Assembly (NCBI GenBank): GCA_947501625.1
Contig: CANMWN010000001.1
Location: forward strand, 62,001 to 126,000
Source: an uncultured Flavobacteriaceae bacterium
Lineage (GTDB): Bacteria > Bacteroidota > Bacteroidia > Flavobacteriales > Flavobacteriaceae
DNA: 64,000 bases
Reading direction: 5' to 3'
Positions 11,006 to 17,497 of this stretch are shown piece after piece; position 1 is the first letter of the stretch, and the number at the start of each line of letters is the position of its first letter. The notes below the pieces were generated by a model, which was not told where the DNA came from, searched no databases, and saw nothing but the letters and a program-made list of their open reading frames with translations. Made by a program: the position numbers and the translations under genes.

Positions 11006-12109
11006 TTAAGAATTGTAAATTAAATTTGCAGCCTTGTCACTAGCACCTTTTCCACCAAGTTTTTGTTCCAATTCATAATAATCGGTAAACAATTTTTCTC
11101 GATATGGTAGTGACAATATTTTTTCTAATTCGGTTTTCAAACGCTTTTCATTAAAATCATTTTGAATTAGTTCAGTCACCACTTCTTTATCCATTATCAA
11201 ATTAACCAAAGAAATATATTTTAGCGTAATTATTCTTTTTGCAATCTGATAAGAAATCCAACTACCCTTATAACATACAACTTGAGGAACTTTGAATAAT
11301 GCTGTTTCCAAAGTTGCAGTTCCAGAAGTCACCAAAGCCGCATACGAAACTGATAATAAGTCGTAGGTTTTATTACTGATAAATTTTACGTTATCGGTTT
11401 TAATAAATTGCTGATAAAAAGAAAAGTCTTGACTTGGTGCGCCAGCAATAACAAATTGATATTCAGAAAAAGAATTTGTCATTTTTAACATTACTGACAG
11501 CATCTTAGTAATTTCTTGCTTTCTACTTCCAGGAAGCAAGGCAATAATTGGCTTATCTGTCAACTCATATTTCTTTCTAAACGCTTTTTCATCTACTTGC
11601 TCTCTATCAGCAATTGCATCAATTAAAGGATGTCCAACAAATTCAACATCACAATCATGTTGCTTATAAAAATCTTGTTCAAAAGGTAAAATAACATACA
11701 TATTATCTACATATGACTTTATCTTTTCAATCCTTGAAGACCTTGAAGCCCAAACCTGAGGAGAAATATAGTAATTGGTATTAAAAGAATGCTCTTTTGC
11801 CCATTTTGCAATTCGCAAATTAAAGCCAGAATAGTCAATAAATATGATTTTATCAGGATGATAGTGTTCAATATCATGCTTACAATAATTCATGTTTTTT
11901 GATATTGTTCTGAGGTTCATTAAAACCTCAACAAAACCCATAAATGCTAGATCTTTATAATGCTTTACCAATGTCCCGCCAACTCCTTGCATCAAATCTC
12001 CTCCCCAAAATCTAAATTCAGCATTGATATCAATTTTTTTCAATGCCTTCATCAAATTAGAGCCATGTAAATCTCCTGATGCTTCTCCTGCTATGATATA
12101 ATATTTCAC
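11006..12109 (-). CDS. lpxB: Lipid-A-disaccharide synthase
   Basis: GT19 glycosyltransferase that joins UDP-2,3-diacylglucosamine and lipid X to give the lipid A disaccharide at the inner membrane. The 367-residue length is normal. The family signature AGEASGDLHGSNL is at residues 7-19. Further conserved stretches are PQVWASRSSRI near 137-147, VGHPLIDAI near 178-186, and the C-terminal nucleotide-binding segment LVTSGTATLETALF near 258-271. It shows the cell is Gram-negative with lipid A. Three bases separate it from the preceding small membrane protein gene. Confidence 0.95.
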   Translation of the reverse strand: MKYYIIAGEASGDLHGSNLMKALKKIDINAEFRFWGGDLMQGVGGTLVKHYKDLAFMGFVEVLMNLRTISKNMNYCKHDIEHYHPDKIIFIDYSGFNLRIAKWAKEHSFNTNYYISPQVWASRSSRIEKIKSYVDNMYVILPFEQDFYKQHDCDVEFVGHPLIDAIADREQVDEKAFRKKYELTDKPIIALLPGSRKQEITKMLSVMLKMTNSFSEYQFVIAGAPSQDFSFYQQFIKTDNVKFISNKTYDLLSVSYAALVTSGTATLETALFKVPQVVCYKGSWISYQIAKRIITLKYISLVNLIMDKEVVTELIQNDFNEKRLKTELEKILSLPYREKLFTDYYELEQKLGGKGASDKAANLIYNS

Positions 12110-12112
12110 CTC

Positions 12113-12391
12113 TTATAAAAACTTCAAAATCAACATAATAAAAGCAGTAGCAATTGTAGTAATTAAAACTCCTCTTGCCCTGTAATCTTGCTTTTTCTTT
12201 ATAAAAACAAAAAACACAAATAAGTTTGGAATAGCCGCCAAACCTAAAACTTTTCCATATAGATTTCCATCTTTAATCAACTTCATCGTTTCTTCGAAAC
12301 TGTGAGTCGAAAATAATTCGATATATAAAAAAAAGCCACAAATAGTTGCAAAAACAGCAACTAAAATTCCTATTAAAATTTCTTTTTTCAT
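12113..12391 (-). CDS. Small membrane protein between surE and lpxB, 92 aa
   Basis: Three hydrophobic segments (residues 4-27, 47-64 and 75-91) separated by short Lys-rich loops predict an inner-membrane protein. I recognise no named family. It is tightly packed: 4 bp from surE and 3 bp from lpxB, so it is surely cotranscribed. The position suggests a conserved operon member, perhaps acting at the envelope, but no function can be given from sequence alone. Confidence 0.7.
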   Translation of the reverse strand: MKKEILIGILVAVFATICGFFLYIELFSTHSFEETMKLIKDGNLYGKVLGLAAIPNLFVFFVFIKKKQDYRARGVLITTIATAFIMLILKFL

Positions 12392-12395
12392 TAGA

Positions 12396-13163
12396 TTATA
12401 ATTCCCAATTATTTAATTTTTGTATAAAATGGTGCGCTGTTAAATCAAATTGTGTTGGAACAACCGACACAAAATTATTAGCAAGCGCCCACTGATCAGT
12501 ATCTTCACCTTTATCCATTAATTCATATTTACCTGAAAGCCAATAATATTCTTTTCCTGTTGGATTTACTCTTTTATCAAAATCTTCAATCCAATTTCCT
12601 CTTGCCTGACGGCAAATTTTTATTCCTGAAAATTCACCTTCTGTTTTTGGAAAATTGACATTCAAAACGATTCCCTCAGGTAAACCGTTTTCTAATACAT
12701 TTAATGTAATCTTTTTTATCGATTCTTTCAAATTATCAAAATTAGCATTCCAAGAATAATCTAAAAGCGAAAATCCAATAGCAGGAATACCTTCAATTCC
12801 AGCCTCTATTGCTGCACTCATTGTTCCTGAATAAATAACATTTATAGAAGAATTTGAGCCATGATTAATTCCAGATACGCAAATATCTGGTTTTCTATCT
12901 AGCACTTCTCTTACAGCAATTTTAACGCAATCAGCTGGAGTTCCTGAGCATTGATATTCTGTTTGTAAACCTTTATCAATTTTAATCTCATCACAAGTAA
13001 GCATAGAGTCTATCGTAATTGCATGACCCATTCCACTTTGCGGGCTATCAGGAGCTACAACTATTACTTCACCAATCTCATTCATTATTTGAATTAATTT
13101 TCTAATTCCTGGTGCTGTAATTCCATCATCATTGGTAACTAAAATTAATGGCTTTTTTGACAT
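12396..13163 (-). CDS. surE: 5'/3'-nucleotidase SurE
   Basis: Metal-dependent nucleoside monophosphate phosphatase, 255 residues. The active-site motif LVTNDDGITAPG is at residues 8-19, with metal ligands Asp12 and Asp13. Ser43 lies in APDSPQSGMGHAIT and Asn100 in SGINHGSNSS, both expected ligands. SurE is linked to stationary-phase survival in other bacteria. Here it is the first gene of a four-gene operon (surE, small membrane protein, lpxB, comEC), a neighbourhood I associate with flavobacteria. Confidence 0.95.
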   Translation of the reverse strand: MSKKPLILVTNDDGITAPGIRKLIQIMNEIGEVIVVAPDSPQSGMGHAITIDSMLTCDEIKIDKGLQTEYQCSGTPADCVKIAVREVLDRKPDICVSGINHGSNSSINVIYSGTMSAAIEAGIEGIPAIGFSLLDYSWNANFDNLKESIKKITLNVLENGLPEGIVLNVNFPKTEGEFSGIKICRQARGNWIEDFDKRVNPTGKEYYWLSGKYELMDKGEDTDQWALANNFVSVVPTQFDLTAHHFIQKLNNWEL

Positions 13164-13873: not shown

Positions 13874-16222
13874 ATGAAAAGACATAATAAAATAACATCA
13901 TTAATATTAGTAATTGCATTTTTACTAGTAAGTTTCAAACCCAACATTAATAATACTGATGAAAAGGATAAAGTTTTAGTTACTATTCTAAAATATATGT
14001 TAACCAAAGGTCATTATAATCCGCAAGAAATAAATGATGGATTTTCTGAGAAAATATTTGACGACTTTATTGACAATTTAGATCCTGCAAAGCGTTATTT
14101 CCTTCAATCTGATATTGATGAGTTTTCTAAATTCAAGACCAAAATAGATGATCAAATATTAAATGAAGATATTTCTTTTTACAAACTTGTATTTGACCGT
14201 TTCATGCAAAGAATGGATGAAGCTAAAGGTTATTATAAAGAAATTTTAAAAACACCTTACGACTTTACTAAAGATGAAGTTTTAGATGTTGATTATGACA
14301 ACATGAGTTTTGCCAAAAATCAAGAAGAACTTTTTAACATATGGAAGAAACAACTAAAATACAGCACATTATCTAGACTTCATGACAAACTTTCAAATGA
14401 ATTCCCAGATATTAATGACACTAATAACTTAAGCGAATTTGAAGAAAAATTCAGAAATGAACTCATAAATGACACCTATACATTTAATAAATATCAATCA
14501 AAAAATGAGGTTAAGCAAATCCAAAGGTTGCTTGTAAAAAACAACATCAGTTTAGGTACATCAGGAATCAAAAATGATGGTGTAGATGGTGTTTTTGGAT
14601 TAATGACAAAACAAGGAATAACCAAGTATAAAAACTTATTAAAATCAAAAAACAAAACTAGTTATACTCCTGAACAATTCACAAAATACGAAAAAGAAGC
14701 AAGGGAAAGCACTATAAAAAACTACAATGACTTTTATGAAAATCTTAAAGACTTTAGTCATTCTGATTGGTTTTCTACTTATTTAAATAGTATTACTGAA
14801 GCATTTGACCCTCACACAGCCTATTTTGCTCCAAGAACAAAAAAAGAGTTTGATGAAAGTCTATCTGGAAAATTAGAAGGTATAGGTGCAAGACTATATG
14901 TAAAAAATGATTATATAAAAGTATCAGAACTTATTTCAGGAGGACCAGCATGGAGAGCAGGAGAATTGGAAGTTGGAGATATCATTCTTAAAGTTGCTCA
15001 AGGAGATGAAGAACCACTTGATGTTGTTGGAATGAGGCTTACCAAAGCAATAGAATTCATAAAAGGAAAAAAAGGTACTGAAGTAAGGTTAACGCTCAAA
15101 AAAATTGATGGCTCAGTAGAAGAGATTTCAATTATTAGAGATGTAGTAGAATTACAAGAAACTTTTGTAAAATCAAGTGTTGTAGAAAAAGATGGTAAAA
15201 AATATGGAGTTATAAATTTACCTAAATTCTATATCGATTTTAATGATACCAAATCTAGGAATTGCGCTAAAGACATGGCAAAAGAACTTGAGCGTTTGAA
15301 AAAAGAAAATATCGATGGAGTTCTTATTGATTTGAGAAACAATGGAGGAGGCTCGCTTCCGGCTGTAATTGAAATGGCAGGATTGTTTATTAAAGACGGA
15401 CCAGTAGTACAAGTAAAATATAAAAACGAAAAACCAATTGTTCAAAAAGATAGGGATAAATCTATACTTTGGGATGGCCCTATGGTAGTCCTTACTAACG
15501 AATTATCAGCATCGGCATCTGAAATTTTCGCTGCTGCTATGCAAGATTATAAAAGAGCAGTAATTCTTGGTAGTAAACAAACTTATGGCAAAGGAACTGT
15601 TCAAAATGTATTGAATTTAAATCAATATTATCAACATCAAGAAGACTTAGGTGGACTTGCTTTAACAATTCAAAAGTTCTATAGAATAAATGGAGGTTCT
15701 ACTCAATTGGAAGGAGTAAAACCTGATGTGATTTTACCTTCTAGATATACCTATATGAATGTTGGTGAAAAAGATTTTGACAATCCATTACCTTGGGATA
15801 AAATCAAAAAAGCAAATTATAAACAATGGGATAAGTATAGTAATTTTGATGATGCAATTGCTAATAGTATTGAACGTATTAACAAAAACCCTCAGTTTAT
15901 GTTGATAGACTCAAATGCTAAATGGTTAAAAAAAGGTCAAGACGACACTACAATTTACTTAAATTATGATTCTTATAAGAATGACTTGAGCAATCATGCA
16001 AAGGAAAGTAAACAGTTTAGGGATTTATATAAGTATAAAACAAACTTGACTTTTAATTCTCCTGCTTATGAGGTTTCTTTAATAAAAAAGGACTCAGTTC
16101 TTGGCAAAAAAAGACTGGCTTGGCATAGAAATCTTTCTAAAGACGTTTACATTGAAGAAGGTTTAAATGTTCTTGGAGATTTAAAGTTAAAGAGTCAACA
16201 ACTACAATTGGTGAAAAATTAA
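13874..16222 (+). CDS. prc: Prc-type C-terminal processing protease with internal PG-binding-like insertion
   Basis: Periplasmic S41A tail-specific protease, 782 residues, anchored or exported by a hydrophobic N-terminus (residues 7-21). Residues 30-330 form the tail-specific-protease N-terminal domain, split by residues 212-256. That insert has the pattern of a peptidoglycan-binding repeat (VKQIQRLL, then GVDGVFGLMTKQGITKY). A PDZ domain covers about 335-420 (GIGARL, GGPAWRAG). The catalytic domain has Ser547 in ELSASASEIFAAAMQ and Lys573 in TYGKGTVQ. A DUF3340-like C-terminal part follows. It likely degrades misfolded or tagged envelope proteins. The insertion is the unusual feature. It ends with a strong hairpin terminator. 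Confidence 0.92.
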   Translation: MKRHNKITSLILVIAFLLVSFKPNINNTDEKDKVLVTILKYMLTKGHYNPQEINDGFSEKIFDDFIDNLDPAKRYFLQSDIDEFSKFKTKIDDQILNEDISFYKLVFDRFMQRMDEAKGYYKEILKTPYDFTKDEVLDVDYDNMSFAKNQEELFNIWKKQLKYSTLSRLHDKLSNEFPDINDTNNLSEFEEKFRNELINDTYTFNKYQSKNEVKQIQRLLVKNNISLGTSGIKNDGVDGVFGLMTKQGITKYKNLLKSKNKTSYTPEQFTKYEKEARESTIKNYNDFYENLKDFSHSDWFSTYLNSITEAFDPHTAYFAPRTKKEFDESLSGKLEGIGARLYVKNDYIKVSELISGGPAWRAGELEVGDIILKVAQGDEEPLDVVGMRLTKAIEFIKGKKGTEVRLTLKKIDGSVEEISIIRDVVELQETFVKSSVVEKDGKKYGVINLPKFYIDFNDTKSRNCAKDMAKELERLKKENIDGVLIDLRNNGGGSLPAVIEMAGLFIKDGPVVQVKYKNEKPIVQKDRDKSILWDGPMVVLTNELSASASEIFAAAMQDYKRAVILGSKQTYGKGTVQNVLNLNQYYQHQEDLGGLALTIQKFYRINGGSTQLEGVKPDVILPSRYTYMNVGEKDFDNPLPWDKIKKANYKQWDKYSNFDDAIANSIERINKNPQFMLIDSNAKWLKKGQDDTTIYLNYDSYKNDLSNHAKESKQFRDLYKYKTNLTFNSPAYEVSLIKKDSVLGKKRLAWHRNLSKDVYIEEGLNVLGDLKLKSQQLQLVKN

Positions 16223-16275: not shown

Positions 16276-16722
16276 ATGTCTTTCGAAATAAAATTCCCTA
16301 CAGTTTGGGCAAACTTTGATGCCAATGCACATATGCGTCATACTGCCTATAATGATTATGCTGCCGAAGTACGTTCACGATTTTTTATGGCTCAAGGTTT
16401 CTCTTTGACTGAATTTGCTAAACATAATATTGGTCCAATTTTATTTTCTGAAAACACTAAGTTTTTTAGAGAAATAAAGTTAGGAGAAAATATTACCGCC
16501 AATTTAGAGTTAATTGCAGCCTCAAGTAAATTCGAACGATTTAAATTCAAGCATCAAATAATTAAAGAGAATGGTATCGTTTCAGCTGAAATTGAAGTTT
16601 ATGGAGCTTGGATAGATCTAACAAAACGCAAACTGACAACTCCTCCACAAGAAATGATTACCATATTTGAAGGATTAGAAAAATCAGATGATTTTGAATT
16701 AATTGAATTGAAAAATGCGTAA
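16276..16722 (+). CDS. Hotdog-fold acyl-CoA thioesterase
   Basis: Single hotdog-domain protein of 148 residues. The N-terminal VWANFDANAHMRHTAYNDYA (residues 10-29) is the 4HBT/YbgC-like active-site helix region, with Asp/Asn and His in the expected places. It probably hydrolyses acyl-CoA thioesters in the cytosol; chain length is unknown. The next gene starts 8 bp before its stop, so the two are translationally coupled, though a nuclease partner makes no obvious metabolic sense. Confidence 0.8.
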   Translation: MSFEIKFPTVWANFDANAHMRHTAYNDYAAEVRSRFFMAQGFSLTEFAKHNIGPILFSENTKFFREIKLGENITANLELIAASSKFERFKFKHQIIKENGIVSAEIEVYGAWIDLTKRKLTTPPQEMITIFEGLEKSDDFELIELKNA

Positions 16723-17497
16723 ACCAAAAGTTGTCTATACAATTCTTTCTTTACTTATTGCAATTTTCTTTTATTGGTATCAACAACAAAATACATTTGA
16801 GAAAATAAAAGTTGATATTGAAGGATTTAATTATTTACCTACTTCAACTACTGGTCAAATTATTCAACACAACAATTATACGCTTTCCTATAATGAACTG
16901 TATGAACAAGCGGAATGGGTAGCCTATGAATTAAATAAATCACATTTAACATACGATGATAGAAGGCGTCCTTATTTCATTAACGATCCAAAAGTTTTAA
17001 CTGGTTCGGCAAATTATAGAAACTTTAAAAACTCTGGTTATGACAGAGGTCATTTATGTCCTGCTGGAGATAGGCGTTTTTCAAAAGAAGCCTATGATGA
17101 AACGTTTTACACTTCCAATATTACTCCGCAAAAAAATGATTTTAATGCAGGTATTTGGAACAGACTGGAAATGAAAACTCGCTATTGGGCAAAAAAATAT
17201 GGTCAACTCTACGTAGTTACTGGTGGAGTTTTAACTAAAGATTTAAAAACGATAGGTTATGAAGATGTTGCTGTTCCAAAACAGTTTTACAAAATCATCT
17301 TAGACTATTCGGAACCAGAAATAAAAGCAATTGCATTTTTATTACCTCATCAAGAATCAAAAAGGTCTCTCAAAAATTTTGTTACGAGTATTGACAAAAT
17401 TGAACAATTAACAGGAATTGATTTTTTCTCAAACCTTCCTGACAATCTTGAGAATAAATTAGAGTCTTCAAAAAATTATTCAAACTGGAAATTCTAA
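16715..17497 (+). CDS. DNA/RNA non-specific endonuclease, membrane-anchored
   Basis: His-Me finger nuclease of the NUC1/EndA family, 260 residues. The catalytic motif YDRGHLCPAGDRR occupies residues 109-121, with His113 as general base. The Mg-binding SNITPQKNDFNAGIWNRLE follows at 134-152. A single N-terminal hydrophobic segment (residues 6-21) predicts export or membrane anchoring. It probably degrades extracellular or periplasmic nucleic acid for nutrients or during DNA uptake; specificity is expected to be low. It overlaps the thioesterase gene by 8 bp. Confidence 0.9.
   Translation: MRKPKVVYTILSLLIAIFFYWYQQQNTFEKIKVDIEGFNYLPTSTTGQIIQHNNYTLSYNELYEQAEWVAYELNKSHLTYDDRRRPYFINDPKVLTGSANYRNFKNSGYDRGHLCPAGDRRFSKEAYDETFYTSNITPQKNDFNAGIWNRLEMKTRYWAKKYGQLYVVTGGVLTKDLKTIGYEDVAVPKQFYKIILDYSEPEIKAIAFLLPHQESKRSLKNFVTSIDKIEQLTGIDFFSNLPDNLENKLESSKNYSNWKF

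Follow-up and report, generated by a model that had tools for sequence, protein, structure and literature searches.

A peptidoglycan-binding-like repeat inside the N-terminal helical domain of the Prc protease in one genus of Flavobacteriaceae

The Prc (Tsp) protease encoded in the window, by which we mean the whole 64,000-nucleotide stretch of DNA analyzed here, from an uncultured Flavobacteriaceae bacterium, contains a segment at about residues 210 to 256 that is, judged by profile homology, a peptidoglycan-binding domain (PGBD)-like repeat. The insert to which it belongs sits in a length-variable loop of the N-terminal helical domain, and within the Bacteroidota genomes surveyed it was found only in the genus of the window. 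As a tentative reading, to which we give somewhat less than an even chance, we propose that a Prc with an intact catalytic dyad gained a PGBD-like repeat that binds peptidoglycan and would hold the protease at the sacculus. Peptidoglycan binding, tethering, and murein-hydrolase substrates are properties that we infer for this organism. The protease and its parts occupy the following positions of the window.

13874 to 16222, plus strand: Prc/Tsp (C-terminal processing) protease ORF, 782 amino acids, from the ORF call and Pfam and NCBIfam profile matches
14402 to 14665, plus strand: extra segment, residues ~177 to 264, which replaces a short linker of sister Prc proteins, from alignments and loop lengths
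14429 to 14494, plus strand: insert-specific conserved helix and linker (LSEFEEKFRNEL...Y), residues 186 to 207, kept in 10 carriers
14501 to 14641, plus strand: PG_binding_1-like (PGBD) repeat, residues 210 to 256, from profile evidence
14666 to 14737, plus strand: first part of the helix that follows in the Prc N-terminal domain (TPEQFTKYEKEARES...), residues 265 to 288, from hhalign and a low-confidence model
14870 to 15097, plus strand: PDZ domain, residues 333 to 408, Pfam match
15200 to 15730, plus strand: Peptidase_S41 domain, residues 443 to 619, Pfam match
15746 to 16183, plus strand: domain-search segment C-terminal to Peptidase_S41, Pfam match

A Pfam search of the ORF found TSP_NTD (in two stretches), PDZ, Peptidase_S41, and DUF3340 in that order, at 172.8, 38.4, 161.3, and 127.4 bits, respectively, each above its Pfam cutoff; all four domains lie in one chain, which places the protein among the long-form Prc/Tsp proteases. 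The NCBIfam model for C-terminal processing peptidases, TIGR00225, is matched at 303 bits against a cutoff of 218.6, and the E. coli-type exception model NF008388 stays below its cutoff (515 versus 825 bits). E. coli Prc belongs to the same protease family and has the same domain order. In the alignment with E. coli chain 5wql, which carries a K477A change, window residues 42 to 167 correspond to E. coli residues 51 to 176 and residues 271 to 700 to E. coli residues 182 to 611, dyad included. The catalytic dyad of E. coli Prc is S452/K477 (PMC5686067, PMC6686036), and a hand count on the alignment places S547 and K573 of the window protein at positions 452 and 477. The N terminus of the window Prc is a hydrophobic segment without a lipobox cysteine. 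As for the genomic neighbors, NCBIfam matches identify lpxB and surE upstream of prc (11006 to 13163, minus strand), and downstream of it (16276 to 17497, plus strand) lie two ORFs, one of them thioesterase-like on a subthreshold match and the other matched by no NCBIfam model, which we take to resemble a DNA/RNA non-specific endonuclease.

Across the insertion point, 5 residues of E. coli Prc (177 to 181) face 103 unaligned residues of the window protein (168 to 270), with profile alignment in agreement, and sister Prc proteins are 58 to 76 residues shorter over the same loop. The initial annotation had described canonical Prc as lacking the repeat, and E. coli Prc indeed has no insert in either the pairwise or the profile alignment. 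Its proposal that a PGBD-like repeat interrupts the tail-specific protease N-terminal domain is likewise upheld by the two separate stretches of TSP_NTD and by the profile evidence for the repeat, and the motifs it named are present: QIQRLL at 215 to 220, GVDGVFG at 236 to 242, and T245, I249, and Y252 in the spacing T-x3-I-x2-Y. The extent that it gave, residues 212 to 256, fits the repeat itself (~210 to 256) and falls short of the whole extra segment, which spans ~177 to 264. Measured from the tryptophan of the preceding motif to DPHT, the loop is 57 residues long in 17 of the 18 Prc proteins from outside the family, 73 to 103 in Flavobacteriaceae Prc proteins that lack the insert (82 to 84 in the three non-carriers of the genus), and 142 to 158 in the ten carriers, lengths that come from 66 of 69 Prc proteins, with the 18th extra-family protein (L064) anchored on the wrong tryptophan. 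Charged linkers ~21 to 26 residues beyond the common length of 77 occur in the same loop of three Flavobacteriaceae Prc proteins (L113, L114, and L118), and no PGBD is found there.

The conserved helix and linker directly precede the PGBD repeat, and the helix (residues 188 to 198) is present in the full-length model, a low-confidence prediction. At the other end, the hhalign match to PGBDs (described below) runs on into the start of the Prc helix from ~265, a helix start that non-carrier Prc proteins also have. Because of this continuation, the Prc helix may double as the third helix of the repeat. In contrast to PG_binding_1 domains, the window repeat, if it has a third helix, seems to share that helix with the adjoining part of Prc.

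The evidence that the segment is a PGBD comes mainly from profiles. A PF01471 search, which the initial annotation had named as a check, gave a mixed result: in the whole window protein the family matches residues 210 to 252, over profile positions 2 to 37 of 57 (36 of 57), at an E value of 0.12 and 13.1 bits, under the cutoff of 23 bits, and four of the ten orthologous inserts do reach that cutoff in genome scans (24.8, 24.5, 24.2, and 23.0 bits). A fifth carrier insert scores 21.0 bits in these scans, and the remaining five, that of the window included, have no PF01471 match at an E value of ≤0.01, nor do the three genomes of the genus whose Prc is without the insert. With a 92-residue excerpt of the window protein, the match improves to an E value of 0.0089 and 16.6 bits, also under 23 bits, and an unrelated phage family, Skunalike_TailTerm, scores slightly better (E value, 0.0066). 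Eight of the ten carriers match PF01471 at an E value of ≤1 (best, 2e-5), and 16 other families are matched by one carrier of the ten each. Compared with the PDB, a profile of the ten carriers gave 12 matches at an E value of ≤1; the best, 4nso ("Effector protein"; E value, 1e-6), is aligned on the repeat and is the only one below 0.01, the second, an adenylosuccinate lyase (E value, 0.042), is aligned outside the repeat, and six weaker ones (E values of 0.089 to 0.79) are cell-wall enzymes by name. An hhalign comparison with 13 independent PGBD rows, 4 of them from genomes of the window's genus, gave a probability of 89 and an E value of 2.3e-6 over 60 columns; four other Prc regions, aligned as negative controls, gave E values of 0.26 to 0.54 and one aligned column each. 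These rows had been gathered with PF01471 from other proteins of relatives, not with the insert, by taking 20 of 30 loci and dropping 7 with a stop in the extended stretch. Residues Q217, L220, G228, D238, G239, G242, and T245 of the repeat are invariant in all ten carriers, and we take this pattern (Q..L, G, DG..G..T) to be the signature of the PF01471 repeat.

Structure prediction, at low confidence, argues neither for nor against the PGBD fold. AlphaFold gave a pLDDT of 71.5 and a pTM of 0.50 for the insert (8-row alignment) and a mean pLDDT of 42.8 for the full-length protein (10-row alignment). A Foldseek search of the insert model against the PDB returned 13 matches at an E value of ≤10, of which none reached ≤0.001 and none was described as a PGBD, and VIA-align comparison of the insert model with 90 chains gave a best Z score of 3.9 and no clear PGBD. 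One of these chains is Salmonella TtsA, which we take to be a muramidase, at a weak Z score of 2.4.

Thirteen of 14 genomes of the genus have a Prc match; ten carry the insert and three are without it. The insert is absent from all 17 extra-genus Prc proteins of the initial 30 loci, and a motif search did not find it in 17 further Prc proteins of the family. The segment is therefore not a normal part of all Prc proteins, the circumstance under which the initial annotation would have been mistaken, since it occurs in 10 of 13 Prc-bearing genomes of the genus and in none of 17 outside it. The contigs with the insert that bear names are from metagenome-assembled genomes labeled Flavobacteriaceae (four), Lutibacter sp. 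(two), and Urechidicola sp. (one). Surveys with the carrier profile at an E value of ≤0.001 found matches in 13 of 397 genomes of the family (3 full length, all in the window's genus), 6 of 346 genomes of the order, and 3 of 345 genomes of the phylum, with one full-length match, the window's own genome, in each of the latter two; these counts are of matches rather than of Prc presence, with ~11 to 12 candidates scored per genome and genomes shared among the three surveys. The matches that are not full length are partial, in other frames, or to the flank alone. The frequency of the insert in Flavobacteriaceae, a question posed by the initial annotation, is thus low, and in the samples to which this carrier profile was applied the insert is limited to one genus; a very different PGBD inside another Prc could escape the profile.

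The history of the insert is compatible with more than one course. In the best tree of the 30 Prc proteins, with the insert columns left out, the non-carriers, which represent three species, group into one clade (99/97), unlike the carriers, and two changes are implied in all. The AU test does not reject a topology in which the carriers are monophyletic (p-AU, 0.177), and both a gain with a loss and a single later gain are therefore compatible with the tree. In the window genome (G000; 98.96% complete), PF01471 has no match at an E value of ≤1 besides the Prc insert, and the genome therefore yielded no donor of its own for the repeat.

Over the extra segment, the ten carrier sequences are 46 to 57% identical to the window protein. 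The dN/dS ratio of the insert is 0.06 to 0.25 in five carrier pairs, three of them from one trio and all with high dS (0.72 to 1.83), and that of the flanks is 0.05 to 0.07, so that the insert ratio is 1.3 to 3.9 times that of the flanks. No internal stop occurs in any of the ten carriers, one of which is a contig-end fragment. Purifying selection acts on the insert, though less strongly than on the flanks and the enzyme.

The arrangement known from E. coli provides a point of comparison for how the protease might be positioned. There, Prc is a soluble protein that the lipoprotein NlpI recruits, via Prc helices h1 and h14, to both the outer membrane and MepS (PMC5686067). E. coli Prc thus differs from the window protein in being without the insert and in using NlpI; in the window's genus, no NlpI match lies over the cutoff. 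Specifically, none of 21 genomes, which include 13 of the 14 genus genomes, reaches the 250-bit cutoff of the NlpI model NF008391, which among 14 control genomes was passed by E. coli alone. Partial matches to this model in 18 of the 21 genomes, the best in the carrier G008 (E value, 7e-17; positions 7 to 164 of 297; 62 versus 250 bits), weaken the view that these bacteria do without NlpI, and an NlpI-like TPR adaptor, diverged to below the model cutoff, may also be present. The NlpI-contact residues of E. coli Prc given in PMC5686067 differ in the window protein wherever they can be aligned: M42, L580, and Q589 stand at the positions of R51, R484, and M493, respectively. L494 falls in an alignment gap, and R47 is outside the aligned part.

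A lipobox cysteine would be another means of attachment, and none is present in the 13 Prc proteins of the genus, carriers and the three non-carriers alike. Elsewhere in the family, all 14 Prc proteins of one other Flavobacteriaceae clade of the tree, by eye, and 2 of the 17 further family Prc proteins have a lipobox-like cysteine and are probably lipoproteins, judging from their N termini. The signal-peptide end in these proteins (L015 to L024, L026 to L029, L115, and L116) reads [VFAS][ATG]SC, with SFTTK or SFTNK after it in most cases; the N terminus of L013 has an ambiguous LIAC. We considered and rejected an exchange of lipobox for PGBD within the family, since 15 of the 17 further family Prc proteins lack both, as do other Prc proteins, the three non-carriers among them.

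We propose that in the ancestry of the genus the repeat, together with its short leading helix, would have entered the length-variable loop of the Prc N-terminal helical domain. The repeat would bind peptidoglycan and, once bound, would keep the secreted protease at the sacculus, near its substrates, which in E. coli are murein hydrolases. In cis, it would take the role that the outer-membrane lipoprotein adaptor NlpI holds in E. coli. The profile evidence, together with the invariant PGBD signature within the repeat, supports such a tether, as do the low dN/dS of the insert (0.06 to 0.25), the aligned catalytic Ser and Lys, the lack of a clear sign of the adaptor arrangement of E. coli, the count of 0 of 13 genus Prc proteins with a lipobox, and the standing of the insert as the sole PF01471 match (E value, ≤1) in the window genome. 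The proposal is weakened by the weak match of the window repeat, the five unmatched carrier inserts, and the coverage of 36 of 57 profile positions, as well as by an insert that outpaces its flanks and by low-confidence structure models that gave no PGBD match. In addition, the three genus members without the insert are equally without a lipobox, which indicates that Prc can do without such a tether.

Other explanations have to be weighed against this proposal. That the segment is not a PGBD at all, and is a helical insertion resembling one by chance, would account for the subthreshold Pfam scores of the window protein, the unrelated phage family that scores as well, the fold searches without a PGBD, and the fact that just 1 of 12 PDB matches lies below an E value of 0.01. 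We regard this as highly improbable, given the four orthologues that reach the Pfam cutoff, the PDB profile match on the repeat at 1e-6, and the hhalign E value of 2.3e-6 beside four negative controls. A PGBD fragment could also have been captured and then tolerated in a freely variable loop, with little function. The existence of a clade of three species without the insert and the faster evolution of the insert relative to its flanks make such a near-neutral insertion credible, and the loop lengths (57, 73 to 103, and 142 to 158 residues) mark the site as variable. It is a serious rival, plausible without being probable, against which speak dN/dS ratios well below 1 in five of five pairs (three from one trio, and at high dS), the seven signature residues that stay invariant among ten sequences at 46 to 57% identity, and carriers that are free of internal stops.

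A third explanation accepts the PGBD-like fold and denies its attachment to the wall: the fold would be a protein-protein module that docks on a subunit, an adaptor, or the PDZ lid and regulates the protease. There is a precedent in CtpB, whose C-terminal dimerization motif resembles the gp144 peptidoglycan-binding domain despite a distinct function (PMC3808539). The insert also lies just ahead of a stretch whose E. coli residues touch the PDZ domain (PMC6686036) and which correspond, in the alignment to 5wql, to N283 and D298 of the window protein, and a conserved insert-specific helix precedes the repeat. We consider this role, too, to be a serious rival that is plausible without being probable; the PGBD signature is kept in 10 of 10 carriers, which a new interface alone need not do, and no partner is known. 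The insert runs directly into a helix whose E. coli counterpart contacts the PDZ lid, and this suggests a further, rather remote idea, namely, a wall-sensing protease in which peptidoglycan on the repeat would alter lid docking, such that the state of the sacculus would switch Prc without an adaptor.

In Firmicutes, Ctp proteins with a PGBD are shorter and have it at the C terminus; the window Prc, by contrast, is a long form that has it within the N-terminal domain. The window Prc resembles the S41/PDZ (Ctp) proteases with a peptidoglycan-binding domain in that the PGBD shares a chain with PDZ and S41 domains. According to a survey of PDZ proteins (PMC6411480), proteins with PDZ and Peptidase_S41 domains have further domains that vary by lineage, among them DUF3340 and a peptidoglycan-binding domain, and peptidoglycan-binding domains in S41/PDZ proteases are thus already published. 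The PG_binding_1 domains of SleB, gp144, and lytic transglycosylases have the signature and the profile match in common with the window repeat; these proteins are cell-wall enzymes, whereas the host of the window repeat is a protease. Two features seem new: the PGBD is placed within the N-terminal helical domain of a long-form Prc, and members of one genus differ in whether they have it. Among the literature matches listed, titles and the beginnings of abstracts describe no PGBD inside the Prc N-terminal domain.

We know of no account of how Prc proteins of Bacteroidota find their substrates. In E. coli and P. aeruginosa, Ctp proteases degrade murein hydrolases with outer-membrane lipoprotein partners (PMC5686067, PMC6050968). 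A tail-specific protease mutant of Flavobacterium columnare has a growth defect, and that report gives the function of the protease as not known to its authors (PMC9936825). The genus of the window, with both carrier and non-carrier species, is a natural system in which to ask whether attachment to the wall is important to Prc.
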